Assembly: GCF_932294415.1 (NCBI RefSeq)
Contig: NC_065536.1
Location: 5,962,974 to 6,026,973, forward strand
From: Quercus robur
Lineage: Eukaryota; Streptophyta; Magnoliopsida; Fagales; Fagaceae
DNA: 64,000 bases
Direction: 5' to 3'
This document shows positions 2,829 through 55,700 of the stretch, one piece after another. Under the pieces are notes generated by a model, which was not told the origin of the DNA, did no database searches, and was given only the letters and a program-made list of their open reading frames with translations. The stretch's first letter is position 1, and each line of letters begins with the position of its first letter. The position numbers and the translations under genes are program-made.

Positions 2829-3827
2829 CTAACAGCGAGAATTGCTGCGCTTTGCCGCGTTACCCTTCGATTGACTGACACGTGCCTTCTTCGTAACCGT
2901 CGGATCCTCAAACCCCATCATCGTCGTCATCCCATCTCCACCGACCATCTCCTTAAACATCCTCTGCAGGTCCTCAAAACTATCCCCCTATTATTAAAAC
3001 CAGGAAATTACCATCATACCCTCACAATATTTTATTATTAAAAAAAAAAAACAACCACACACATTTAATTTTTATAAAATGTAAATAAATAAATAAATGC
3101 TACCTCGTCCTTCACGTTGTTCATCATGGACAACATCTCTTGCATAAAATCACAAAAATCCTGCATTAAAAAAAAAAAAAAAAAAATTCATCATGGGCTA
3201 AAAGGTAAAACAAAATAAAGTTTAATTATATTTCCAAGGCAATCATTTTAGTATTTTACCGCGTACAAGACCAAACGACATCGTTTTACCCACACAAAAA
3301 AAAAAAAAAAAAAACCCCAAAAACCAAAAGATACGTACTTCGTCTTCGTCCTCCAGAGGATTGTAGAGTCCCACGTCGTACATTGACCTCTTTGCCTCGT
3401 CGGATAATACTGTTACAATTTAACGTCCGTTATATCTCCACGTCAGCACATTATAACGGGAATTTAAACGACACCGTTTCTTTTTTTTTCTTTTTTTGAG
3501 GGTATGATAAAGTTACCGGAGTAAGCCTCTTGGATTTGCTGAAATCGCCGCTTGGCCTCCGCCGTCGCCGCGCCGGAGTTCCGTGCCCACCTGTCCGGGT
3601 GCCACTTCTAAAAAAAAACACAAAAAACAAAATTAAAAAAACAAAACGGAAACGACGGCGTTTTGGGGAGGGAAAGAAAACGGTGGCGTTTTAAGGGGGT
3701 GACTGACCAGAGCGAGTTTACGATAGGCGGAGCGGACATCGGAGAAGGAAGCGTCTTTGCGAATTCCGAGGACGGAGTAGTACGAGAAGGAAGATCCACC
3801 GTTGGATCCTCCTCCTTCCCGATCCAT
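2829..3827 (-). CDS. Small J-domain (DnaJ/HSP40 type III) co-chaperone, 165 aa, five exons
   Basis: J-domain proteins stimulate the ATPase of HSP70 through an HPD motif. The exons on the minus strand are 3827-3708, 3607-3517, 3409-3339, 3160-3104 and 2987-2829. All junctions are GT-AG and phases close exactly to 165 codons plus TAG. The product starts [11 protein letters not shown] and enters the J-domain at 'YYSVLGI' (about residue 16). The HPD triplet is at residues 43-45, made at the exon 1/2 splice (LAL|KWHPDRW), followed by '[20 protein letters not shown]'. After the J-domain come an acidic linker (EDEDEDF), a Met-rich helix ([12 protein letters not shown]), '[14 protein letters not shown]' and a basic Lys/Arg C-terminus. 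There is no Gly/Phe or zinc-finger region, so it is type III (class C). No transit peptide is evident, which suggests cytosol or nucleus. An upstream in-frame ATG at 3841 lies in another frame of the 5' leader and was not chosen. Confidence 0.9.
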
Positions 3828-11900: not shown

Positions 11901-14900
11901 CTAATACAGTAGGTTTGCAATTCTTCTAGCTGCCACTCCCCTCCTAACTGACCCCCACTTGACAGCAGCCCGAATCTTACACCAAGATGCCTTTGGCTTT
12001 CTAGTGCTTAGAATATGTACACCTGAATTGGGAAAAAGAGAATTTCCAACATCTGCTTCATTGCCTGGAGCAAGGAAAATACTATTTTGTGGCCCCCATG
12101 TTATAATAGGAGCTATGCCATTTCCTGCTAGAAGACCATTTGTAAAATCTTGCACCTCCGAAACACTTGTTGACCAACCATATCCTGCATTGCTGAGTCC
12201 AGGTAAATATTCCTCCATCACTGAGCTGTTCCTTAGCAGTGGATGACTATTCTGTACTAAAGAATCTTCTAAATGATAGCTACATTCAGCTGCATGGTTT
12301 TCTGAATAGTTAAAACCCAGCAATGTTTCTGGTTGATCTGCAGAAATATAGACTGTTAGCTACTTAGGAAAAACTAGAAACATAATTACCAAAAAAAAAA
12401 GAGAATTGAACCTGGTAGATTAAAAGGCAGTATATGATACAATTAGCCAATGAAAAGAAATGAGAAGAATGATACTTATAAATAGTTTGGGATATGGATA
12501 CATGACACAAGTTTTTAGTACCTTGATGTGTGACTGGGAAGCCAAATTGTTGTGAACCTTGTTCTGGAACACTAAATGGCTCAGCTTGCAGACCTGCTGA
12601 GACCATTGGAAACCTAGCTATTGGTGCTACATTGAAGGGAACGATATCATTCTCATTTTCATAAGCATGTTGCTTCAGAGTTTCCACCAATTGCTGCCAT
12701 TTAAAAAGGAAGTAACAGGGAAGGTGATCAGTTTCTAATTAATGGATAACTGTACTCAAAAGAATATTAATGCATACCTTCTGATAATAGTTGAGTGAAT
12801 CCAGAGGACAATATTCTTGTCCATCGAATGTTGCTGCTACAACCTGGTAGATGGAATTGAATAACAGACAAACACTTTCCCCAGCTATCTGGTAAATATA
12901 CTTCATTCCATCATCTTTATTACAGGTCATAGCATGTTCTATGATTGCCTCCCATGTCCCATCTGAGATCCTACCAAACATCTAAATTTCCGTGGCAGAA
13001 AGTTAGATTAGCTAAGAAAAAAAAATTTGTTTTAACTACTAAAAGTGCTTTGGAACTATAATCCAAACACAGAGAAGTCTCTTACTCTGCGTAATTCGGT
13101 TGGATTGATTACATATTTCCGCAGTAAGTCCCCAACAGTTGTAATTTTGTGAGATGCCAATCGCTGATGGAATGCACCGTCTTTTCCTACTGTCTTCAAC
13201 CGCCATATCTCATCACTCAAAGATGGAGGGAAGTGTTTCTGATTTGCTGAACAAAGAGATTGCTTATCAGTCTCATACGTCTAGTTATGGTAAAGATGTT
13301 AGCGATATCAAGCATAATAGAAGCATACTAGAATATCCACTAGAAATTAAATAGCATAAGTACGAACTACTTCAAGAAATGTAATAATTATGCCTCTACT
13401 ATTTAAGATCAAAAGGAGCTGAAGTTAAGCTCTTATGACTTACTTTCTCCACGGTGATCTTTCACCATGAAAGGTTCACTTCGACCTTCCCTAATTCCTA
13501 CTTCAGTATGAGGCTTTTGCACAATTGCTCCTAATCTAAACTTTCTACTTCTCATCCAGCTTGAATTGTCAGTAAAATATATGTCACCAATGGAACCAAC
13601 ACCTTCTTTTAAGGTCACGGACGCATCCCCACATAACAATGGCCTTTTACCCTCTCTTTCCTGTAAAACTTTGGCATTGAATTCCTGCTCAGACCAGTCC
13701 TCTTCTTCATCGAAAGGGAAATCACCATTGAGTACAACAATACGAATCTTTATTGAAGAAAGCTGACCAGATTTGACTGTAGTCCTGGAGCTAGTATCAA
13801 ACAGTTTAATTTCAATGGGTGTACCGTCTTCAGCTCTTATAGTATTGTTTGTAAATATTTTTGATGACAATTTATTGACAAAGCGCAACTGCAGACTCCT
13901 CACTCCAGATGTTCCAGCCTGATGAAATGAGGGTCTGCAACAAAACACAAAAACCCAATGTTGGACTGTTTGTGTGGAAAAAAAAAATAGTGAAAATCTA
14001 GTCATCTGGTGGGAAAAAGCAGTTTAAATTTGGGTTATACTGCATGTTAGGGGGCGCAAACTGTGACAACATGAAGCATACTGATACTTCATGTTAAGGG
14101 AACATCAAACCTTTAAGATACTGATGGTACTCAACCATATTCATCTTGTCAGAGTGAGAAAGATCGTTTATATCAATCTTGATTTCACCTGATACTTGCC
14201 CTGCTAAAGGTATCAGAGAGACCACGTGTGTGGCATAAAATATTCAAGAAAACAATCAAGTCAAAGAACTGACCTTAGAGATGGCTGAAGTACTGGTAGA
14301 AAGGCTTGTTGCACCTCCTCTCGCACCTATTTGACACATATAGGGTATCAGGAACTCAAGAGATTTGAAAGTAAAAGCACTATAATATCTCAATGAATAT
14401 CAGCAATTCCAAAATTTCAACACCATATTGACAACCAGAAGAATATTTTTAGTGAATGAAAGCATATCCAAACTATCTAATCCTGCTGATATTAGCACAG
14501 TTATAGCTTATTTTGCATGTACAATTACAATCTGGGGATGCATCTATGCAATACAGTAAAAGTACTTGTCACAATTGAGAATTGAATGAATTTTAGCTTG
14601 TGTTGAGTTTCACACCAGGTGCCTTTGAAGCGATTAAGTTACATAAACAATTTTGGCAAGTTTCAACTGTTACTAATCCTTTTTAAGATATTGTATAGAC
14701 ATGGCTAACCCATCATAAGTCATGACATGTATGGTAAAGAAAGATGACTCTCAAATAGTCAAGATAATTAATCATCGAGACCAATCACCAACTAGCCTAT
14801 GAAATCAAACTTCCAGTCAAAAAGAGAGTCTTGTATCAGTCAATAAAGCTATGCAACCAAAGAAGTTATACCGAGAATCCATACACCATCAAAACATTGA

Positions 14901-28084: not shown

Positions 28085-29172
28085 TTTTTCTTTTTCTTTT
28101 TTATGTTAAGTAATAATGCATTATTGAAAGTTAAACAAAAGTGATCCCCAAGTACACCGGAAGTGTACCAAGGATGCAAAAAAGTTTCAACTAAAACTAC
28201 ATAAATCTAAAAAATCATCTAAGGTAGAAAAATAGTGGCCAGTTAAGGCAGCTGACCAATCAAACATGGATTGTAAAAGATACAACTTTAGCTACGCGGA
28301 CAAACACTCAATCAAATCAAAAGTACAAAGATTCCTCTCCTTCCAAATGATCAACATAACCCAATGAGGCATGGCTCCCCACCCCATCAACTCCACCACC
28401 CTTTTCGGCATAATTCAATTCACACTAAAAAAACAAAACACCATAGACCATAGATCGTGCGCAATGTCACAATGCAGCAACATACAGTCGGTGGTCTCCC
28501 CACTGTGCTTACACATTCAACACCAATCGACAAGGCATCTATTCTGCTTCTGAAGATTCTTTATGGTAAGAATTTGTCCCCGAACTGCAGGCCATGTGAA
28601 AAAAGCTACCTTAGAAGGAATCTTATCCTTCCAAATGGTTTTACACAAAAAATAAGGGGAGTGACCTGTAATAAAAGCTTCATAGAAGGATTTGACCTCA
28701 AATAAACCACTCCTAGTAGGGGTCCCAAACATCTGGTCTTCCTTAGCCCTTGTAACTTTAAAGAAATACAGAAGACAAAGAAATGATTGCAAAATCCCAA
28801 CCTCCCAATTATTAACAGATCTAGTGAACAAAATACCCCATTGAAGAACCCCAGAATTCCAATTCGTATTTTCTGCCATGAACGCCTCCTTATTTCTGGC
28901 TATATGGTACAACATCGGAAAGCATCCTTCAGGATCTCCACACCATAAGCCGGAAACAAACTCTGAGACCATCACCCAAACCAAACTTGACATACCGAGC
29001 AAGCCTCCCCACCCTTTTTTAATATACTTCCAAAGGGACACACCATATGGTCCCTTAAGCACACAGGAAGTCCAATCACCCAATATACACCCATACTTCA
29101 TAGCCACAACACTTCTCTATAAAGAATTAGTTTCAGTGGCATAACACCAAAGCCAGTTCCCCAACAATGCAT
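28085..29172 (-). pseudogene. LINE 3' fragment (zf-RVT region), left copy
   Basis: The minus-strand frames read like the C-terminal zf-RVT domain of plant LINEs. They contain 'NNALLGNWLWCYATETNSL', 'VAMKYG', 'TRSVNNWEV', 'FEVKSFYEAFITGH', '[20 protein letters not shown]' and 'DCRP'-type sequence. The frame is broken by stops and a shift. A poly(A) tail on the minus strand appears as the T-rich run at 28082-28104. The same fragment, at the same intron position, occurs in the right copy, so insertion came before the duplication. Confidence 0.8.
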
Positions 29173-29423: not shown

Positions 29424-31262
29424 TCACTCAAACTTTGGAAGCAGCTCTTGAATATTTTCATCTACTTGATTAGACAACAGCAAGTCAATAAACATGGCAG
29501 CAGTTGTTGCGTTTGCCGAAAATCCCTTGTCAACCATCATTTTGAGATATTTCACTGCCTTTGATGTCTCACCATGTTGCAATATCCCTTGGATTAATGT
29601 GTTATATGTGCGATGGTCGGGTGAACAACCGTTGCTATCCATTTCCTCAAGCAGCTCACCCGCTTCATCAACTAGTTCATTCTTGCAAAATCCTTTGATC
29701 ATTATAGTATAAGTCCGAACATTAGGTTGCAATCCTTTTACAAAAAGACCACTAAAGATTTCTCTTGCAGTTGTAAGTTCCCCAACATTGCAGAAACCAT
29801 CAATCAAGATGTTGTAAAACACAATATTGTGGTCCAACTTTTTTTCTTCCATCTCCCGAAACAATGCCATTGCCTCAGTAATTCGTCTATTCTTACAAAA
29901 TCCATCTAACAAGATGGCATAGGTTAGGGGATTTGGGTGTTGGCCACAAGCTTGCATTTTATGGAATAGCTCCAGTGCAGCCTGGGATCTCTCCTCTTTG
30001 AAAAACCCATCGATAAGAGTGTTGTAAGTCACAACATCAGGAATCGCTCCCTTGTTGGACATTTCATGAAAGATACGCATTGCCTCATCAATTTTTTTAT
30101 TTTTGCAATATCAATTTATCAATATGGTATAGCTAAACACATCGGGTGAACAACCCTTCTCAACCATCATATTAAACGTCTTAAATGCCCCATCCATTTG
30201 GTTTTGCAAACAATAACCATCAATCAAAGAAGTGTAAGTGACTTTGTCAGGATCAATGCCTCTTTGAATCATCATTTCAAATGCTTCTTTTGCCTCCATC
30301 AACATCCCTTCTTTGCAAAGTGTGTCCACCAATATGCTAAAGGTTCGCAAATCCAGCATGATCTTCCTTTGTGCCATCTCGTTCAACAAAGTAGCCGCCT
30401 CCCTCCCCCGGCCAAAATTGCATAGTCCTTGAATTATGCAATTGTAAGTGACAACATTTGGTTGAATGCCTTTACTCATCATTTCAGATAAAAGGTTTAA
30501 AGCCTCAGTTACAAATCTATCCTTACATAAACTGTCAATGATCGTGCTATACAGTACCACATCGGGTTCACAACGCCCTTTCTCCATCTTCCTGAGCAAC
30601 CTAATAGCCACACCAGTCTGGCCAATCTTACACAGACCGTTTACTATTGTTCCACAAGTAATCACATTAGGCTCATACCCTTTCTTCACCATTTCCTCTA
30701 CCAACCTCACAGCTCCAAAAATATTACCTTTAAGACAGAGGCCGTTGACAAGAGTGGTTAGAATTATACAGTTTGGCTGATAGCCAAGTTTCAAAATTGT
30801 TGCTAAGACAGAGAATCCAAAATCGACCCGGTTCAAACGACAGTAGCAATTAATCAAAACAGTGCGAGTATAAACATCAAGAGAGATTCCGAATGATTCC
30901 ATTCGTTGAATTAGAGTAACGACTACAGAGTAATGCTTCATTCTTGCAATGGCACCCAACAACTGAGTAAAATCGACAATGGAAGGCAAAGGGTGCATGT
31001 GAAGCATTGTATCAAACAGGCCTAAGGCATGATCAAGATTCTTAAAGGTTCCAAATTTGCAGTGATCTCTCACAGAATTCAACAACTGATTCCGATTCTG
31101 ATATGGGGTTTTCGCATTTTCTCTAATAGTAGAACAATAATGAGAAGTAAAAGCACGAAATGGAAGGCTTACTACTCTAATAATCAAACGATTGCATATA
31201 AAAAGAAGAGAGGATATTGATTTACCCATTTCACAATGACGACACAGAGTCTCAGCTACCAA
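29424..31262 (-). pseudogene. P-class PPR protein gene (RFL-like) with one in-frame stop
   Basis: PPR proteins bind organellar RNA and direct its processing, stability or translation. The frame runs 613 codons from ATG at 31262 to TGA at 29424 with no intron and no frameshift. It is interrupted only at codon 384 (30111-30113), where TGA stands in place of the GGA glycine of the usual 'ILINGYCKNKKIDEA' repeat. About 15 tandem 35-residue P motifs are visible from residue 60 on, for example 'PNVVTYNCIIQGLCNFGRGR', 'PDVVTYNTLIDGFFKEERSQ' and 'PNVRTYTIMIKGFCKNELVD'. The Arg/Ser-rich N-terminus suits a mitochondrial presequence. No E or DYW extension is present. The pattern resembles restorer-of-fertility-like PPRs. 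An alternative ATG lies 11 codons in (MGKSISS). It may be a recent pseudogene, a null allele or a sequencing error. Confidence 0.88.
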
Positions 31263-31686
31263 CTCGGGTCGGGTTTGGTTTCGGCTTAGCTTCGGAACTT
31301 CAAAAATCGTAAGAAGAAATCATGGTGGTGGAGTGGCAGATCGGAGAGCGAAGCAGTGAGTAACGAGTGTAAAGAATTAGAATGATTTTTTTTTTTTTTT
31401 TTTTTGAGAAGCGAATGATTTTTTTTTTGAAAGAAGAATGAGAATGATTTGTTCGAAGGTAAGACTAAAGAATGAGCTAACCTTGTGCAAGAGCATATAA
31501 TATAAAAAAACTACCTAAATTAGATTCCAATGTCTACTTTTGCCTAACGTGTATTATTTTAGTTTTTGAAATTTTATTCTCAAAAAAATAAAGTTTTTGA
31601 AATTTTTTTTACAAGTGAGTTAATGTTGTGCAAAAAGTGAAGAGTCTAATATAAATAAATTATTAAAAGTCTAATAATAATAATAA
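31263..31686. other. 5' flank of the PPR gene
   Basis: The flank has a poly-T run (31387-31404) and AT-rich DNA. No further gene is visible. The region ends at a Helitron-like terminus. Confidence 0.4.
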
Positions 31687-36182: not shown

Positions 36183-36470
36183 AAACTCATCTATGACTTA
36201 AAAAATGTCTAACTCTTAAACTAGGTATAATTTGAATCCATATGTGTGTGTGTATTAAAAGCCAAAGTTTAGAGAAATTCCAATTAGATTCTCAATTCAA
36301 TTATTATAAAATTTAAATCCAATTAAATTCTAAATTTTAAATATATATATACACACACACACACTATTAATAACCAAATTCCCGGTTTGGTTTTTAACAT
36401 TTTGCATACTAAAATACAGGCACACAAATTTTTAAACTCTCTAAAATACCCTTATCTTTTAGTTCAATAA
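35831..36470. other. AT-rich spacer with (GA)n and (AC)n tracts
   Basis: The spacer holds a (GA)n run at 36149-36180 and short (TG)n/(AC)n tracts at 36243-36252 and 36351-36363. No gene is visible. It leads into the target duplication of the MULE. Confidence 0.5.
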
Positions 36471-37016
36471 TTTTAAATTGGGATAATTACACATTACCCA
36501 CCTGTGGTTTACCTCTAATTCTAAGTGCCTACTCGTGGTTTGAATTTTGACACTTTGCCTACCTGTGATTATCTCCGTCTATGTGCCGTGTGCCCACCTC
36601 TGTTAAAATTAAGGGTAAATAGGTATTTTTACACCCGTTTTATGTCTCTCTCCTCCCAAAACAAGAAAAACAAAAAAAAAAAGAGAAAAACAAGATTAAA
36701 ATATAGTATTGGTTTCTCATTATTCACAAACATGAAGAACATACACAAACATGGAGAACATAAACCCAGAAAACTAATACAAATCAAATGGAGCAAAACC
36801 ATGAGAGAAAGAGAGTTCTTCATCTTCTTCCTCATACTTATTTTTTGTGCTTGTACTAAGAAATTTATTAAAATCAAAACATAACACAATTTACAACATG
36901 AAGAACATAGACCCAGAAAAATCAAACTCAAATCAACCTCCACAAATATATATTTGCCTTGTTGTCTCTCTTTCACCACAATGGTTACTAATTTGTTCAA
37001 AGAAAAAAAAAATCAA

Positions 37017-37165
37017 ATGGCCGACCACAACAAACCCAGCCATGGCCGACCATTCCAAAGCCAAACCCAGCCATCCATGGCCGACCACACCACAACAAAC
37101 CCAGCCATGGCCGACCACTCCAAAGCCAAACCCAGCCATGGCCGACCACTCCAAACCCTCCCAGA
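37017..37165. repeat. Tandem repeat 'atggccgaccac...ccaaacccagcc'
   Basis: Five copies of a 25-35 bp unit start at 37017, 37042, 37077, 37107 and 37138, each with 'atggccgacca' followed by 'caaacccagcc'-like sequence. In the plus frame they give ADHSKAKPSH-like peptides leading to the NLR start codon. They may be an expanded leader of the captured gene. Confidence 0.65.
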
Positions 37166-37215
37166 TCTGGCTTTTCTCTTGCTCTTCTAGCGTTCTTTTC
37201 ACCCACTACGAAGCC

Positions 37216-37380
37216 ATGGCCGAAGCAATCCTTTATGGCGCTGCACAGAAAATCATCAAAAATTTGGGATCCCAGATTTTCCAAGAGATTGGATTGCTCT
37301 GGGGTGTCCGAGATGAGCTTGAAAAATTGAAGAACACAGTGTCCGAGAAAGAATTGGAGCATCATTTACAGCAGAGAATA
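37216..37380 (+). pseudogene. Captured N-terminus of a CC-NBS-LRR (NLR) gene
   Basis: From the ATG at 37216 the frame reads 'MAEAILYGAAQKIIKNLGSQ', 'IFQEIGLLWGVRDELEKLKN', 'TVS'. This is the start of the Rx-type coiled-coil domain of plant RGA-like resistance proteins. Similarity stops after about 42 residues, where the sequence turns into 'EKELEHHLQQ' and an (AT)n tract. There is no NB-ARC or LRR. The context 'gccATGGcc' is a good plant start site and the upstream frame is also open. It is a fragment, not a functional receptor. Confidence 0.75.
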
Positions 37381-38020
37381 TATATATATATATATATATA
37401 TGTTTAGAGATGATCGGTCACAAAAAGAATAGTGGACACAAGTCACAAGAAGAAGAGATTGAATTGGATAACTTCATATTCATGATTAAAAGAATAAGAA
37501 AGTGCGCAATCGCATGCTCAACCCCGTGCTTATAAACTCTCGCATTATTTGACGCTAACAGCAAAAAAAGGTTCCTTCCAAAGCGTATCAACTTTTAGCA
37601 ACTGCCATCTGCATAATGCTAAATTCGTATCTCAAAAATGGGTTTTTCAGCTAATGGGTTTTTCAGCTAATGTCGCCACTTCGATCAATTTATTATTTAA
37701 ATAAATAAATATAAAAGTAGGGGCTGTTAAACTTTTGTTAAGCTTTCAAAGTTGCCCCACTAAAGCAGTAGCGATGATTTTGTTTGTGTATGTTCTTCAT
37801 GTGTTTATGTATGTTCTTCATGTGGGGAGTGTTTTGATCTGTTTGGGGTTTTGTTTTTACATTTTCTGTGTTAGAGTAACGGAAAGTAGAGAGGTGGGCA
37901 CACGGCACATAGACGGAGATAATCACAGGTGGGCAAAGTGTCAAAATTCAAACCACGGATAGGCACTTAGAATTAGAGGTAAACCACAGGTGGGTAATGT
38001 GCAATTATCCCTTTTAAATT

Positions 38021-38301
38021 AAAAAACACAATCTGGTTAAAAGAGTAATTTATTATTTTTAAAAGAGTTCCTAAGTTTTAGGCATTCAAACTGTTATCAA
38101 AATCTTAAAAAATTAGGAAACTATCTTTATATCACTTTTAAACATTATTTCACTAAACCTAAAATAAATAAATAAAAAAGAGCCTTATTGCACGCTCAAA
38201 GCACGTGCGATAAAACAACTAATAAATAAACATAAATAATTTATGTTTTCTCAAATTATTGATATTGTTATTAGTTGCATTTACTCGTAATTAAACAATG
38301 T
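38021..38301. other. Spacer between the MULE and the next Helitron-like end
   Basis: AT-rich DNA containing 'gcacgctcaaagcacgtgcg' at about 38189. No gene is visible. Confidence 0.4.
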
Positions 38302-41982: not shown

Positions 41983-43608
41983 TTAGGAAACTAACCGGGG
42001 TAACAGTTGAATATTCTGTGATAAGCGCGTGAATACCGTCCAAGGCTGAATCTCTAAATAATCCATCTGAGCGGTTGACTGGGAAGTAGGGAGCTCTGAC
42101 TGTGCTTTTGTGTACTTGGTTTCCCCCATAGGCTTGAGTCCGAGGACCATGCAAGGCCTTGGTTCTGTCCAAAACTTAGGATTTTTCTTTTGTGTACTTG
42201 GTTTCCCCATAGGCTTGAGTCCGAGGAACATGCAAGGCCTTGGTTCTGTCCAAAACTTATGGTTTTTCTTTTGTGTACTTGGTTTCCCCATAGGCTTGAG
42301 TCCGAGGACCATGCAAGGCCTTGGTTCTGTCCAAAACTTATGGTTTTTCTTTTGTGTACTTGGTTTCCCCATAGGCTTGAGTCCGAGGACCATGCAAGGC
42401 CTTGGTTCTGTCCAAAACTTATGGTTTTTCTTTTGTGTACTTGGTTTTCCCATAGGCTTGAGTCCGAGGACCATGCAAGGCCTTGGTTCTGTCCAAAACT
42501 TATGGTTTTTCTTTTGTGTACTTGGTTTCCCCATAGGCTTGAGTCCGAGGACCATGCAAGGCCTTGGTTCTGTCCAAAACTTATTGTTTTTCTTTTGTGT
42601 ACTTGGTTTCCCCATAGGCTTGAGTCCGAGGACCATGCAAGGCCTTGGTTCTGTCCAAAACTTATTAGATACCTTTTTTGTACTTAGTTTCCCCATAGGT
42701 TTGGGTCCGAGGACCATGCAAGGCCTTGGTTCTGTCCAAAACTTGTAAGATATCTTTTTTGTACTTGGTTTCCCCATAGGCTTGAGTCCGAGGACCATGC
42801 AAGGCCTTGGTTCTGTCCAAAACTTATTGTTTTTCTTTTGTGTACTTGGTTTCCCCATAGGCTTGAGTCCGAGGACCATGCAAGGCCTTGGTTCTGTCCA
42901 AAACTTATTAGATACCTTTTTTGTACTTAGTTTCCCCATAGGTTTGGGTCCGAGGACCATGCAAGGCCTTGGTTCTGTCCAAAACTTGTAAGATATCTTT
43001 TTTGTACTTGGTTTCCCCATAGGCTTGGGTCCGAGGACCATGCAAGGCCTTGGTTCTGTCCAAAACTTATGGTTTTTCTTTTGTGTACTTGGTTTCCCCA
43101 TAGGCTTGAGTCCGAGGACCATGCAAGGCCTTGGTTCTGTCCAAAACTTGTAAGATTTCTTTTTTGTACTTGGTTTCCCCATAGGCTTGGGTCCGAGGAC
43201 CATACAAGGCCTTGGTTCTGTCCAAAACTTGTAAGATTTCTTTTTTGTACTTGGTTTCCCCATAGGCTTGGGTCCGAGGACCATACAAGGCCTTGGTTCT
43301 GTCCAAAACTTGTAAGATTTCTTTTTTGTACTTGGTTTCCCTATAGGCTTGGGTCCGAGGACCATACAAGGCCTTGGTTCTGTCCAAAACTTGTAAGATC
43401 TCTTTTTTGTACTTGGTTTCCCCATAGGCTTGGGTCCGAGGACCATACAAGGCCTTGGTTCTGTCCAAAACTTGTAAGATTTCTTTTTTGTACTTGGTTT
43501 CCCCATAGGCTTGGGTCCGAGGACCATACAAGGCCTTGGTTCTGTCCAAAACTTGTAAGATTTCTTTTTTGTACTTGGTTTCCCCATAGGCTTAGGTCCG
43601 AGGACCAT
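41983..43608 (-). CDS. 541-aa repeat ORF in sense orientation of the retrotransposon
   Basis: The minus-strand frame is open through the whole minisatellite from 43608 to 41983. It begins about 300 bp downstream of the PBS, where gag would normally start. It encodes 18-19 repeats of 27 residues with the consensus KPMGKPSTKKKSYKFWTEPRP plus CMVLGP, strongly basic, ending in a unique tail 'AQMDYLEIQPWTVFTRLSQN' and so on. Because the unit is 81 bp and contains no stop in several frames, length alone is not evidence of translation; two plus-strand frames are also long. No similarity to gag is visible. Confidence 0.3.
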   Translation of the reverse strand: MVLGPKPMGKPSTKKKSYKFWTEPRPCMVLGPKPMGKPSTKKKSYKFWTEPRPCMVLGPKPMGKPSTKKRSYKFWTEPRPCMVLGPKPIGKPSTKKKSYKFWTEPRPCMVLGPKPMGKPSTKKKSYKFWTEPRPCMVLGPKPMGKPSTKKKSYKFWTEPRPCMVLGLKPMGKPSTQKKNHKFWTEPRPCMVLGPKPMGKPSTKKISYKFWTEPRPCMVLGPKPMGKLSTKKVSNKFWTEPRPCMVLGLKPMGKPSTQKKNNKFWTEPRPCMVLGLKPMGKPSTKKISYKFWTEPRPCMVLGPKPMGKLSTKKVSNKFWTEPRPCMVLGLKPMGKPSTQKKNNKFWTEPRPCMVLGLKPMGKPSTQKKNHKFWTEPRPCMVLGLKPMGKPSTQKKNHKFWTEPRPCMVLGLKPMGKPSTQKKNHKFWTEPRPCMVLGLKPMGKPSTQKKNHKFWTEPRPCMFLGLKPMGKPSTQKKNPKFWTEPRPCMVLGLKPMGETKYTKAQSELPTSQSTAQMDYLEIQPWTVFTRLSQNIQLLPRLVS

Positions 43609-43645
43609 ACAAGGCCTTGGTTCTGTCCAAAACTTGTAAGATTTC
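42105..43645. repeat. 81-bp minisatellite, 19 copies
   Basis: The anchor 'ataggcttg' recurs every 81 bp exactly from 42131 to 43589, giving 19 units. Each reads 'tacttggtttccccatagg', 'cttgagtccgaggaccatg', 'caaggccttggttctgtcc', 'aaaactt' plus a variable spacer. Three spacer types occur (tatggtttttcttttgtg; tattagataccttttttg; tgtaagat(a/t)tcttttttg). The units 42536-42778 and 42779-43021 repeat the same three-type order, a 243-bp higher-order unit. The last six or seven units share 'gggtccgaggaccatac'. Confidence 0.95.
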
Positions 43646-43892
43646 TTTTTAAGTAATTTTTTCTCTATACTTATTTATTTTTCGAAGGTTAACCCCTAGG
43701 CCAGGGAGGGGAGAGTTGGCTTGAGGCCGGAAGCCCCTAGAGCTGCCCGCGCCGTTAGCAGTGCAAGGCATAGCCCCTAGCAGAAGCTTATGTCAGAGCA
43801 ACAATTGCCCATCGCCGGAGATGGGAAAAACTCGCGAATCTCTGCTTGCTAGAGAGTTGACTCATGCGCCACCCGTGCCAACGCGCAAGCCT

Positions 43893-50577: not shown

Positions 50578-51900
50578 TTTTTATTTTTTAATTTTTTGAA
50601 ACAGAAGCTTATCATTCAATTAATCAGAAAAATTAGAATCTTGGTACAAAGCTTCTCTAGCTATTGGAGGAACGTCTTCCATCCAATACATATCCTCAAT
50701 AATATTCTTATCAAATTGAGCTAATACATGAGCTACCCGATTCCCCCCTCTGCTAATACAATCAATCCTTACCTAATGTAAATTTCTAATCAAGTGTTGA
50801 ATATCCCCAATCACATTCTCAAGCATTGACTGATCAATCTTCAAAGTTGAAATAGCTTTCATGGCAGAACTGTTATCTCCTTCAATGACTAATTTAGAGA
50901 AGCCCACATCCACCGCAAACTCAATAACTTTTCTACATGCAAGTAGTTCAGCTTCCCCAGTGCAAAACACTTTCGGTCCCTTAGCAACCATGGCTGCCAT
51001 AACCTCACCTTTCTCATTTTGTATAATTGCACCATATCCGAATCTGTTAAGGCCTGAGAACACCGCTGCATCAAAATTAAGATTGAAGACCGACTCTGGA
51101 GGAGGTTGCTAAGTATCCCGAGCAGATTGCATCCCTTGTTCAGCTCTCATCTGTTCTTGTATAGTCCGAAACTCCTTTAACAGCTCCTTTGCGCAATTGA
51201 TCAACCATCCCGGATCATGGTACTTCCCTCCATGTACAACCCGGTTTCTTTGATTCCAAATCAGCCAAGCTTGGAGCAACATAACCTCCATGTCTTGTAT
51301 CTCAACCCGATCCAGCAAGTATTTCATTAAGTGAATTAAATCAGCTAAACTCGATACCCCTTTCTGCAGAATTTTCAAACTACAGACCACACATCCTTGG
51401 CTGCCTCACATTCCCAAAGAGCATGGATAGCTGACTCTAGAAATCTCATACATATAGGACACATCGCATCACCAATTATTTTTTGCTTTGACAGATTCAG
51501 TTTTGTTGGCAAGATATCATTGCAAGCTCTCCACCCAAACACTTTAATCTTGTTTGGAATCTGAAGCTTCCATAAGGCAGCCCAAACTCGTCTCCCCACG
51601 CAACCCCTTGAGCTCTCAGCTATATTTTCTCCTTGCAATACTTCCCTCGCCACCTTATATGCAGACTTGACAGTAAACAACCCTTTTTTATGATGCAACC
51701 AGATTATAGTGTCTTCCACATCTCTTCGACTTAGTTGGATTCTACAGATGGCTTCAGCATCCTCTTGCTCAAACATGTTCATAATAAATTTAGACCTCCA
51801 AGAATGCAATTCTTGATCAATTAATTCAGCCACACTCACCTCTTGAACCTCATCCTTGACTGGAAACAAAGATGCATTTGTTGGATAATTCGGTATCCAT
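50578..51900 (-). mobile_element. 5'-truncated LINE (zf-RVT and RNase H) with 12-bp TSD
   Basis: It is flanked by TATCAATTTTTA at 50566-50577 and 51901-51912; the left duplicate has the site once (about 25600). On the minus strand, 51869-51375 encodes a zf-RVT domain ('VKSAYKVAREVLQGEN', 'VWAALWKLQIPNKIKVFGWR', 'CPICMRFLESAIHALWECE'). About 51110-50773 encodes RNase H ('FNLNFDAAVFSG', 'GEAELLACRKVIEFA', 'VIEGDNSSAMKAIS') with the expected D, E and D residues. Stops interrupt the frame. The T-rich run at 50578-50599 is the poly(A) tail. This is a classic target-primed, 5'-truncated insertion. Confidence 0.92.
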
Positions 51901-52756
51901 TATCAATTTTTAAATTTAAAGTGGTAAAACTTGTGATAATAGAAAAAGAGAAATGATATTTTATGATCGAGCCATTTTAGAAAGAAAAAAAATCATATTT
52001 TATATTTTTTAATTAGTATTTCCCAATATAAACTAATTAATACTTCCTTACTTTTTTTTTTTTTGAGAAACTAATACTTCCTTACTTAAGCCTTAATTAT
52101 AGAATATATTTTCCATTTTTCGCCTGAATAATAGTGGGTCCGTAGTATATTCCATAATTTTCCTATTAATACGAAAAAAAAAAAAAAAAAACCTGGTTGA
52201 CGCCACAATCGCAGCGTTGCCATGTTAAGAATCAACAACCAAATTTTTGCATCGAATTCAATTACCACAGCTTGCAAATCTAAGAAACGCAGAGATTGAT
52301 GCCCATTGCCATCTTCTCTCACTGCCCAAACCTCCTCAGCGACAATTTATGTATGTATGTACAGTTTGTATAAACTCGTTTCTTGCATTGTGTCTTTGCT
52401 GCTTGCATCACATCACTGACTGATACTAGGAATCATGTTTCCTTAAATAGATAGAAATCGTGTTTCCTCAAAAATCTAAGACATTAGAATATATTCCACT
52501 AGTTTCCAACTCTGAAAAAAAAAAGATAATGTTTTTTGGGATCAAAATATTTGATTTCTAAGTGATCTTTCTCCGATCATAATTTGCCACGCGATCTTAG
52601 TCTTATTTCAGTTGTATAACTTGTAAGAGAAAAGATAACGTTTTCACAACAAAGTTGCAATCTTTCTGAACTCTTTTGCAAGCAAATCTCTTCCTTTATA
52701 AAGTTTGTAAAACCTCAACAAGCATCACTTTGATGAGTTTGATTCATAACAAAGAC

Positions 52757-55700
52757 ATGGCCACCACTCTTCCAAATTCACCACCACCCTCTTCTCTCTT
52801 TGCATCCATAGACATGGGCACTAACTCCTTCAAGCTTCTCATAGTTCGTGCCAACCCATCTGGCCAATTCCTCACACTCAACCACCGCAAAGAACCTGTC
52901 CTCCTTGGCCTTAACTCAACCCCAACAAACCCTTTTGCTATCTCCAACCAATCCCACCTCCTAGCCCTCCAAACCCTCCAAAACTTCCAAAAACTTTTGC
53001 TTTCCCAGCAAGTAATTCCTGAGCACACTCGTTGTGTTGCCACTGCTGCAATACGTGAGGCAACAAATGGGAATGAACTTGTTGAGTGTGTCAAGGAAAA
53101 GGTTGGTCTTGAAGTTGAGGTTTTGTCTGGTGAAGAGGAAGCCAGGCTTGTGTACAAGGGTGTGCTTCAGTTTTTGCCACTTGTTTATGAGAAATTGGTG
53201 TTGGTTATAGATATTGGAGGTGGGTCCACTGAGTTTGTTGTTGGGAAGGGAGGGAAAGTTTGTTTTGGGGCTTCATTGAAGTTGGGGCATGTGAATTTAA
53301 ATGAAAAGTTTGTGAAACATGGTGATCATAATGTTGGGGACATGAGGGAGTTTATTAGGTTGGTTATAGAAGAATCTGGGGTGGTTGAGAGAATCAAGGA
53401 GTTTGGGGGGGTTGAGATGGTAGTAGGGTGTTCTGGTACAATTCGTGCAGTTGAGAAGGCAGTGTTTTATGGATATGCTAAAAGTGAAATGTTTGAGAAT
53501 GACAATGTGGTTTTGTTTGAGGAGTGGAAGAGGGATTGGAGGTTTAGTAGAAGGGAATTGAGCGGTGTGGTTGAGAGGTTATGTGATGGGAGGGAGGGAG
53601 AGAAGGCAAGGAGAGATAAGTTCTTTAATAGGCGGTCAGAGTTTATTGTGGCTGGGGCTGTGTTGTTGGAGGAGATATTTGAGGTGATTGGGATTGAGGA
53701 TATGGAGGTTTCTGGGTATGCATTAGGGGAGGGTGTTATTGCTGAGAGTTTGGGTAAGGTGTATGGTGGTTATGATTTGAATGCCAATGTGAGGTGGAGG
53801 TCTGTTGTGCAGCTTGCAATGAGGTTTAATAGCAAGAAGAGCATGAGAGTTGCTGCTCAGTGTGCTGGCATTGCAAAGGTGTGCTGAATTTTCTTGTTTT
53901 TGTTTCTTTATGAGGTATTTGCTGAAATTTATGTTATACCAGGTATAACGCCTGTTTGGTATTGCTGTATGAAGTAAAACTTTAGTTGTAAGGCTTTTAA
54001 GTTGGAGAAGCTTAACTGAAAAGAGCTATAGCATTTTGTGCTTTTGGCAAATTACAGTGAATAGTGCTTTAAAGTTATGGATTTATAAAGCATGAACAGG
54101 AAATTGTAGAGCTTTTAACTAAAAGCTCTAAATCTCGTTTTTTTTTTTTTTGGTTGTACTTATTGAACCTAATGAGATTGTGGTGATTACCATGTGTCTT
54201 GTACTTATTTTTTTGCACATTAGGATTTGATTTACAATTCAAGAAGTTGAACCTAATGAGATACATAACATTTTTACGGTTTTTCATAGACATTATGATA
54301 TAGGACTGCTTAAAGACATCCAATGATATTAACTAAATGATTGTCCAGGTGATTTTTGAAGGCTTGAGAGAATGTGAAGAGGTTGCTGCCTCCTTGAATG
54401 AAAGGGATCTTGAATACCTTGAAGCTGCCTGTTTGCTTCACAGTGTTGGGCTTTTCATGGGAAAAAAAGGTTACCATAAGCAGACTTATCGAATAATCAT
54501 GGTATGCCTTTTTGTTCTTTAGTTTCGTGTTCCATGATAGTCTTGCATACATGCAAATGAGAGGCTTTATATGGCTATTGAAGAAATCATATATGCTTTG
54601 AGATCTTTGAAAGTTGACAATTTGTCATCTCTAAAACATTTCAGTATCTTGTATTGCATAAATAAAATTATTCTTCTGTTTATTAATCTTTGATCATTTT
54701 GATCTTTTCCATAGGATGGTGGTCATCTTCATGGTTATAGTACTGAGGAGGTCAAGGTATGTTGTCCATTTATCACTATTAGTTCTGCTCTGTCCTTAAT
54801 GATGCATATTTTTAGCGTTCTTTGTGCTACCCCTGGGCCTTGCCTCTGGTGGTTAAGGGTGGATTGGAATTGATATAGATCCATGTTTGTACTCAAACTC
54901 AACTCAGTTGAGCCTTAATCCATAAGGAATAAATAGACTCTGTAATGATAATGATTAGTACATCTGCAGTTAATGGCTCTACTCGCAAGACATCACAGAA
55001 AGAAATTCCCAAAATCTGATCATGCTTCTTTAATAGCATTCTCTAACGAGGTATCTCACTCTATATATTCAGTTAATTATTGTCATTTTTCCTAGTCCTA
55101 TGCAGGAAAGAACTGTTTACATTCCTCCCTACCTTTTTCTTCTATTATTTTCAGGTAAAGCAGAAATTTCGATCTCTTTGTGCAATTGTACGAATTTCTG
55201 TAGCATTGCAGCAGCATCAATGCATAAACATTCAAGAAATGGTCTTTTCAATTTCACATGAAGGTTTCAAATTGGTATGTGCCAGTCTGAATGTCACCTA
55301 GCTAATCATTTAGTTTTGTAGTCTAATGAGAAGTTGCTGGATAATGTATAGCTATTCTATGAAGCTTATGGAATGAGTTTTTTTTCTGCTCTTAGAAAGC
55401 ATCAATTTGGAACATAAAAAGTGGAGTAAAATAAATCTGGTTATGAATGGGAAGTGAATCGTCACATAAAGCTTATGTTGCAGTTTGTTTTGCTGTTCGT
55501 TTTTCTTTTCTTTTCTTTTTTTCTTTTTATGTTTAGTAATAATGCATTATTGAAAGTTAAACAAAAGTGATCCCCAAGTACACAGGAAGTGTACCAAGGA
55601 TGCAACAAAGTTTCAACTAAAACTACATAAATCTAAAAAATCATCTGAGGTAGAAAAATAATGGCCAGTTAAGGCAGCTGATCAATCAAACATGGATTGT

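Follow-up and report, generated by a model that had tools for sequence, protein, structure and literature searches.

Pack-MULEs, reportedly described by Jiang et al. in 2004, are the closest known counterparts of the oak element considered here, and the capture of the 5′ ends of genes is reported as favoured in them. The Pack-MULEs of rice, maize, Arabidopsis and tomato are non-autonomous elements with long TIRs and a 9-bp target-site duplication (TSD), which carry a host fragment and occur in multiple copies with distinct TSDs (PMC8277862, PMC3310237, PMC4858842). An example of such amplification is PM-ZIBP from tomato, where 14 copies carry a fragment of one gene and the members that multiplied have remodelled TIRs (PMC3310237). 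The maize Mu/MuDR system, treated together with Mu13 in PMC3276141, includes non-autonomous elements that share the TIRs of their transposase-bearing partner and have unrelated interiors. Gap filling, FoSTeST and multicopy Pack-MULEs are discussed in PMC8277862, according to which template switching, often at microhomology, places filler sequence between TIRs. New TIR regions are brought in by the repair models of PMC4858842. The field is reviewed in PMC13317346, packFinder is the subject of PMC8903248, and Pack-MULEs are mentioned beside NLRs in PMC12405883 and PMC5819176. In the portions of the literature covered, no paper was found that describes the oak family or any Pack-MULE that has exchanged its TIRs and carries an NLR start, which is weak evidence of absence.

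The oak element lies in a stretch of 64,000 nucleotides from Quercus robur, referred to as a whole as the window. It is well supported as a Pack-MULE, ordinary in kind and not a new gene, but more informative than the average about the exchange of ends and cargo. Unlike in the Pack-MULEs of the four plants named above, this cargo is the start of an NLR coiled coil, and it is found in three MULE backbones, one of which has swapped TIRs. The multiplication of one gene fragment resembles PM-ZIBP; the TIRs of PM-ZIBP became tandem duplicates, whereas those of the window element appear to be replaced by the TIRs of another family. In contrast to maize Mu (PMC3276141), two TIR types are found around a single interior in the oak family, and this indicates the direction of exchange. 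Its AAACCC join and composite structure fit the template-switching cases of PMC8277862, although the filler would here come from another Pack-MULE and not from a gene, as it does in the cases covered there. The window copy is quite probably a second-generation composite Pack-MULE, the NLR piece of which is now neutrally drifting passenger DNA. Its parts, together with the two TSDs, are the following (L numbers denote loci, C numbers contigs):

36471–36479, no strand: left target-site duplication TTTTAAATT, direct repeat with 0/9 mismatches
36480–36601, plus strand: 5′ TIR, 122 bp, of the type of the transposase-bearing family, with 2/122 differences from the 5′ TIR of one 7.1-kb element
36602–37016, plus strand: 5′ interior, common to ten NLR-carrying sisters, L003–L012 (1.4–3.1% substitutions), and partly to NLR-less elements
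36898–37407, plus strand: 169-codon ATG-started frame, crossing the minisatellite into the NLR piece
37017–37158, plus strand: minisatellite of 25–35 bp units with five ATGGCCGACCA, also in NLR-less L013, L014, L019 and L027
37153–37158, plus strand: AAACCC, belonging to both the repeat array and the NLR piece
37153–37344, plus strand: captured NLR piece, with the leader (37153–37215) and the first 43 codons (37216–37344)
37345–37601, plus strand: 3′ interior, only in the window element, L002 and (from 37352, 86%) C2:35090675-35090970; contains (AT)12
37602–37889, plus strand: 3′ sequence of the NLR-less MULE lineage L023–L026 and L028–L030, also in the C2 relative
37890–38011, minus strand: 3′ TIR, 122 bp, with 2/122 differences from the 5′ TIR of the 7.1-kb element
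38012–38020, no strand: right target-site duplication TTTTAAATT, direct repeat with 0/9 mismatches

The element thus spans 1,532 bp (36480–38011), and the perfect 9-bp target duplication noticed in an earlier, sequence-only reading of this DNA is present on both flanks. The same reading gave TIRs of about 130 bp. Long TIRs are real, the two ends agreeing at 117/121 bases, but their length is set at 122 bp, as the 129-bp arms detected include 7 bp of the near-palindromic TSD. The claimed lack of a transposase agrees with a domain scan of 36300–38200, which covered 11 of the 20 stop-to-stop frames with 40 aa or more, the longest included, and detected no transposase domain in them; the nine frames outside the scan have 41 to 90 aa, and some of them lie outside the element. 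The five-copy ATGGCCGACCA repeat is likewise confirmed upstream of the captured piece, and it belongs to the transposon, because it is also present in MULE relatives without any NLR piece. The frames tried in the 3′ interior (37345–37601) gave no Pfam domain above the cut-off. A second captured gene in the 3′ half was considered and rejected, the frames tried having one weak Pfam match, with E 0.039 and 13.4 bits against a cut-off of 30. The adjoining segment 37602–37889 holds a 16-bp tandem duplication, and the NLR-less lineage that shares it is 85–90% identical to the window element at 37602–37661 and 96–99% at 37670–37741.

Several other features were recorded in the window. The region 42105–43650 consists of an 81-bp tandem unit (19.1 copies, 95% matches) and is probably a minisatellite, not a gene; its minus-strand frame stays open over 563 codons because 81 is a multiple of 3. 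On the minus strand of 29424–31319, PPR-repeat frames of 402 and 228 codons lie in the same frame with one in-frame stop between them (30111–30113). The zf-RVT frames at 28517–29116 and 51375–51899, both on the minus strand, are probably LINE-type remnants. Host-gene frames encode a calmodulin-binding protein-like N-terminal domain (13433–14023, minus strand) and a Ppx/GppA phosphatase family protein (52670–53887, plus strand).

The captured piece has its ATG at 37216, followed by 43 NLR-similar codons, in line with the start codon and approximately 42 residues of Rx-type coiled coil recognised by the sequence-only reading. The NLR similarity begins 5′ of the ATG, at 37175 in BLAST with most NLRs and at 37153 in the span shared by the carriers, and a leader of ~40–60 bp precedes the 43 codons of a CC-NLR of the RGA/Rx_N type. 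The Pfam Rx_N model matches with E 9.8e-5 and 22.8 bits, below its curated cut-off of 27.7, over 33/93 model positions, so the domain is incomplete. What secures the NLR identity of the piece is not this score but the presence of NLR paralogues in the same genome that have long open frames (best E 1.2e-16), with up to 1,215 aa in a cluster on C4. The paralogue elsewhere in the genome that the sequence-only reading proposed to look for is therefore present.

The searches were run over the same 786-Mb assembly of 42 contigs. The whole element gave at least 152 matches (best 40 of 1,571 candidates), and 26 elements were excised from the fetched loci, with a perfect 9-bp TSD in 22 of them; the right end of L027 was guessed, which makes its TSD row uninformative, and L019b, an alternative left end of L019, is uncounted. 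The TIR pair bounds many other copies, and the two checks that the sequence-only reading set for its own refutation have both turned out in its favour. At least 13 copies, on seven contigs (C1, C3, C4, C5, C6, C35 and C39), carry the NLR piece, with perfect TSDs in 11/13 (the exceptions are L004 and L009, and the TSD of L008 is within an AT repeat). The element has transposed. With its TIRs, TSD, host-gene fragment and multiple bounded copies, the identification as a Pack-MULE carrying an NLR start is upheld.

The NLR piece of the window, leader included, is 96.4–98.4% identical to those of the other 12 carriers. In a tree, they are separated from 24 NLR loci, together with the window's own piece, by a branch with support of 100/100 (bootstrap unsettled) and a stem of 0.17, and this single clade of 13 points to a single capture. 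The length of the NLR similarity kept differs between the copies. It is longest in L036 (270 nt) and extends over 210 nt in L003, L004 and L012, over the same span minus a 25-nt deletion in L005–L007, over 170 nt in the window element and L002, and over 94 nt in L008–L011. The minisatellite 5′ half is found in L003–L012, the window element and L002. The 5′ interior of L036 differs from that of the other carriers, its first 235 bp resembling L023, and its 3′ half is common to L003 and L012. The NLR-less L019 tracks the window element to position 679 of the element and then diverges, while L036 and others share the sequence from 674; the overlap is the AAACCC.

The NLR cluster at C4:80-82 Mb matches the piece with its leader at 76–82% for the window copy and up to 83% for L036 (BLAST). 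Many members of this cluster have open frames of ~1,160–1,215 aa, and others are shorter or broken. Over the whole shared piece including the leader, the window copy is 64.6–77.1% identical to the 24 NLR loci. No donor closer than 82–83% was found among the best 40 of 48 DNA and the best 150 of 446 protein candidates, and the 5′ interior of L036, considered as a donor promoter, had no match to NLR flanks among the matches listed. Ka/Ks between the pack consensus and 21 of the 24 NLR loci (L057, L060 and L089 were left out owing to a stop or to homology ending early) is 0.17–0.53, and the median between NLR pairs is 0.34 (142 pairs with Ks 0.15–1.0). Such NLR-like values suggest that the stem divergence mostly accrued before the capture, in a donor that was still an NLR. 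Compared with the stem, the capture would then be recent, and the donor is presumably lost, absent from this haplotype or beyond the candidates scored.

The NLR-less L019 sits inside the C4 cluster, ~10.7 kb from one NLR start. At this locus (973–1500 and 3453–3461; C4:81125306-81127794), three copies of the 9-bp TAATTCTTT are present, one in front of a 519-bp piece and one on either side of the full element. The 519-bp piece opens with a 48-bp TIR end, and 427 bp of it have 83% similarity to sequence in the vicinity of another NLR (L059).

The TIRs of the window element lead to a second family. Among the best 40 of 820 candidates in the TIR search, 26 make 13 facing pairs 6.7–7.3 kb apart, with 93–98% identity, and three more pairs are ~1.7 kb apart (C37:20169981-20171680, C37:20188576-20190275 and C38:31341481-31343200). 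The middle of one TIR-paired element of 7.1 kb (L091) contains a MULE transposase domain (E 1.4e-10) and a SWIM domain (E 6.5e-7) in two reading frames, within the 2.2 kb read of this single element. An 800-bp piece of L091 matches at 97–100% inside all 13 TIR-paired intervals of 6.7–7.3 kb (best 40 of 198). A genome search with the Pfam MULE model had no match in the 13 intervals among the best 150 of 1,249 candidates, because the domain of L091 reaches only 41.9 bits and the weakest match listed has 79.5. The high identity among the 7-kb copies suggests recent activity, and the family is the likely mobiliser of the window element, judging from the shared ends. One transposase-bearing copy of 6.9 kb (C3:9880737-9887650) begins 1,017 bp upstream of the start of an NLR frame that encodes 1,184 aa on the minus strand.

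The comparison of the window element with L003–L012 reveals an abrupt change of divergence at the inner edge of the 5′ TIR. The substitutions amount to 10.9–14.3% in the 5′ TIR, 1.4–3.1% in the 5′ interior and 1.2–4.1% in the NLR piece, where the figures for L008–L011 (3.3–4.1%) take in a few columns beyond the homologous piece; for the piece alone these four copies have 2–4/116 differences. Relative to L003 and L004, substitutions are closely spaced up to position 113–118 and the next one is at 186–192, and some other copies have a few extra differences at 135–204. Both ends of the window element and of L002 differ at 1–3 of 122 bases from the 5′ end of the 7.1-kb element. In the TIR tree, these ends group with the 7-kb family (100/99, bootstrap unsettled), whereas the remaining 11 carriers, with 22 ends, lie elsewhere. 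The direction of the exchange is indicated by L013, L014 and L019, which are related through the same 5′ half, lack the NLR piece and bear the older TIR type.

The 3′ side is exchanged as well. From 37602 on, the sequence of the window element and L002 is shared with the seven NLR-less elements L023–L026 and L028–L030, and the two copies have the same junction at 865 and 3′ halves that are 98–99% identical. Their 5′ interiors differ by 2.2%, as much as that of the window element differs from the older copies, and their tree node is weak (82/77, bootstrap unsettled); the argument for their common origin therefore comes mainly from the shared junction and 3′ half. An NLR-less element with both 37345–37601 and young TIRs was absent from the 13 of 13 candidates scored, among which only the window element, L002 and the C2 sequence have the segment, and the acceptor of the composite is accordingly a putative one. 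The sole outside relative of 37352–37601, at C2:35090460-35090970, extends into 37602–37780; it has no TIR or NLR match among those listed and may be what is left of the acceptor lineage.

The formation of the window element can be described as a series of steps. An ancestral MULE would have taken the 5′ end of a CC-NLR once, with the leader, the start codon and ~76 codons that are still present in L036, as the tree and the copies support. At the AAACCC microhomology the piece would then have been joined behind a different, minisatellite-bearing MULE 5′ half; the junctions are visible in the copies, and the order of events is a suggested one. This minisatellite form would have spread to many sites, with the NLR piece shortened by internal deletions. 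Subsequently, as the breakpoints suggest, the interior (~123–865) of an older Pack-MULE may have been copied as filler during the repair of a broken or excised young-TIR MULE, which would leave the product with another 3′ half and with TIRs of the young type on both sides. The composite is present at two unrelated sites, in the window and at L002, each with its own perfect TSD, and would have been mobilised by the transposase of the 7-kb MuDR-like family sharing its TIRs. The sequence-only reading, in which a MULE captured the NLR start, is correct in that an NLR fragment lies within a MULE; the fragment probably arrived via an older Pack-MULE, with flanking transposon sequence, and not directly from an NLR gene.

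The swapped ends could alternatively result from gene conversion, in which the TIRs of an older-family Pack-MULE were overwritten by those of the transposase-bearing family and the 3′ half was replaced separately. The position of the 5′ switch at the inner edge of the repeat is what conversion confined to the TIR would produce, and in the carriers the 5′ TIR closely matches the 3′ TIR (113–121/121). However, the 3′ exchange extends far past the TIR, to position 865, and conversion needs at least two events, whereas one template-switching repair event accounts for both TIRs and the 3′ half, which makes conversion an unlikely source of the composite. A chance arrangement, with a degenerate NLR pseudogene between two unrelated repeats, might be suggested by the Rx_N score below the Pfam cut-off, but it has practically no probability and is refuted by the matched ends with their perfect TSD and by the similar-ended copies at unrelated sites.

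A further alternative concerns the role of the cargo, as the captured start could be functional, either by encoding a short coiled-coil peptide or by giving rise to transcripts or small RNAs with a regulatory effect on full-length NLRs. MULE TIR promoters, and Pack-MULEs that are transcribed or produce small RNAs, are reported in PMC3310237, PMC8277862 and PMC13317346. The ATG is retained in 12 of the 13 carriers (L010 has ATT), as would be expected from the low divergence by itself. Five carriers (window, L002, L003, L012 and L036) have an intact 43-codon frame, which is disrupted in the other eight, by a stop in L004, the frameshifting 25-nt deletion in L005–L007 and truncation in L008–L011. 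The open frame upstream of the ATG noticed by the sequence-only reading exists in the window copy, where it has 137 codons, but is not a property of the family: it has 109 codons in L003, 85 in L004, 23 in L036 and only 15 in the other nine carriers, and the long versions cross the minisatellite in shifted readings. Among the changes unique to single copies, 7 are synonymous, 14 non-synonymous and one a stop, so that the synonymous share is 7/22 against the 21–27% expected under neutrality, and the NLR piece is conserved no better than the flanking MULE interior. A conserved peptide was rejected on account of the broken frames and the neutral-looking substitutions. The longest exact match of the piece to the 24 fetched NLR loci, on both strands, is 17 nt, and a perfect-match siRNA against these NLRs was rejected at 18 nt or more. 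The best aligned 21-nt stretches have 1–2 mismatches, with one mismatch for many of the 24 loci, and imperfect targeting could still take place. Taken together, a function of the captured start is very improbable, and the peptide or antisense/small-RNA role proposed earlier is not supported. The NLR piece is read, from its pattern of substitutions, as passenger DNA that would be drifting neutrally.

The manner in which MULE ends and interiors become combined is an old question, and in maize, Mu elements share ends and not interiors. In the oak family, one interior occurs with two types of ends, the exchange has a polarity and its junctions are sharp, and the transposase-bearing partner is present in the same genome, which makes the exchange testable. 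It is about an even chance that the NLR start passed among three MULE backbones by half-element exchange, the last one swapping both TIRs for those of a recently active family, and that the cargo is perhaps also the fossil remains of an NLR lineage missing from the assembly. If this is true, cargo of old age could, through the trading of ends, be moved by any transposase that is still active. The family also shows that a MULE is able to spread the start of an NLR gene to many sites of the genome, which can confuse the annotation of NLRs and may also preserve traces of lost receptor lineages.
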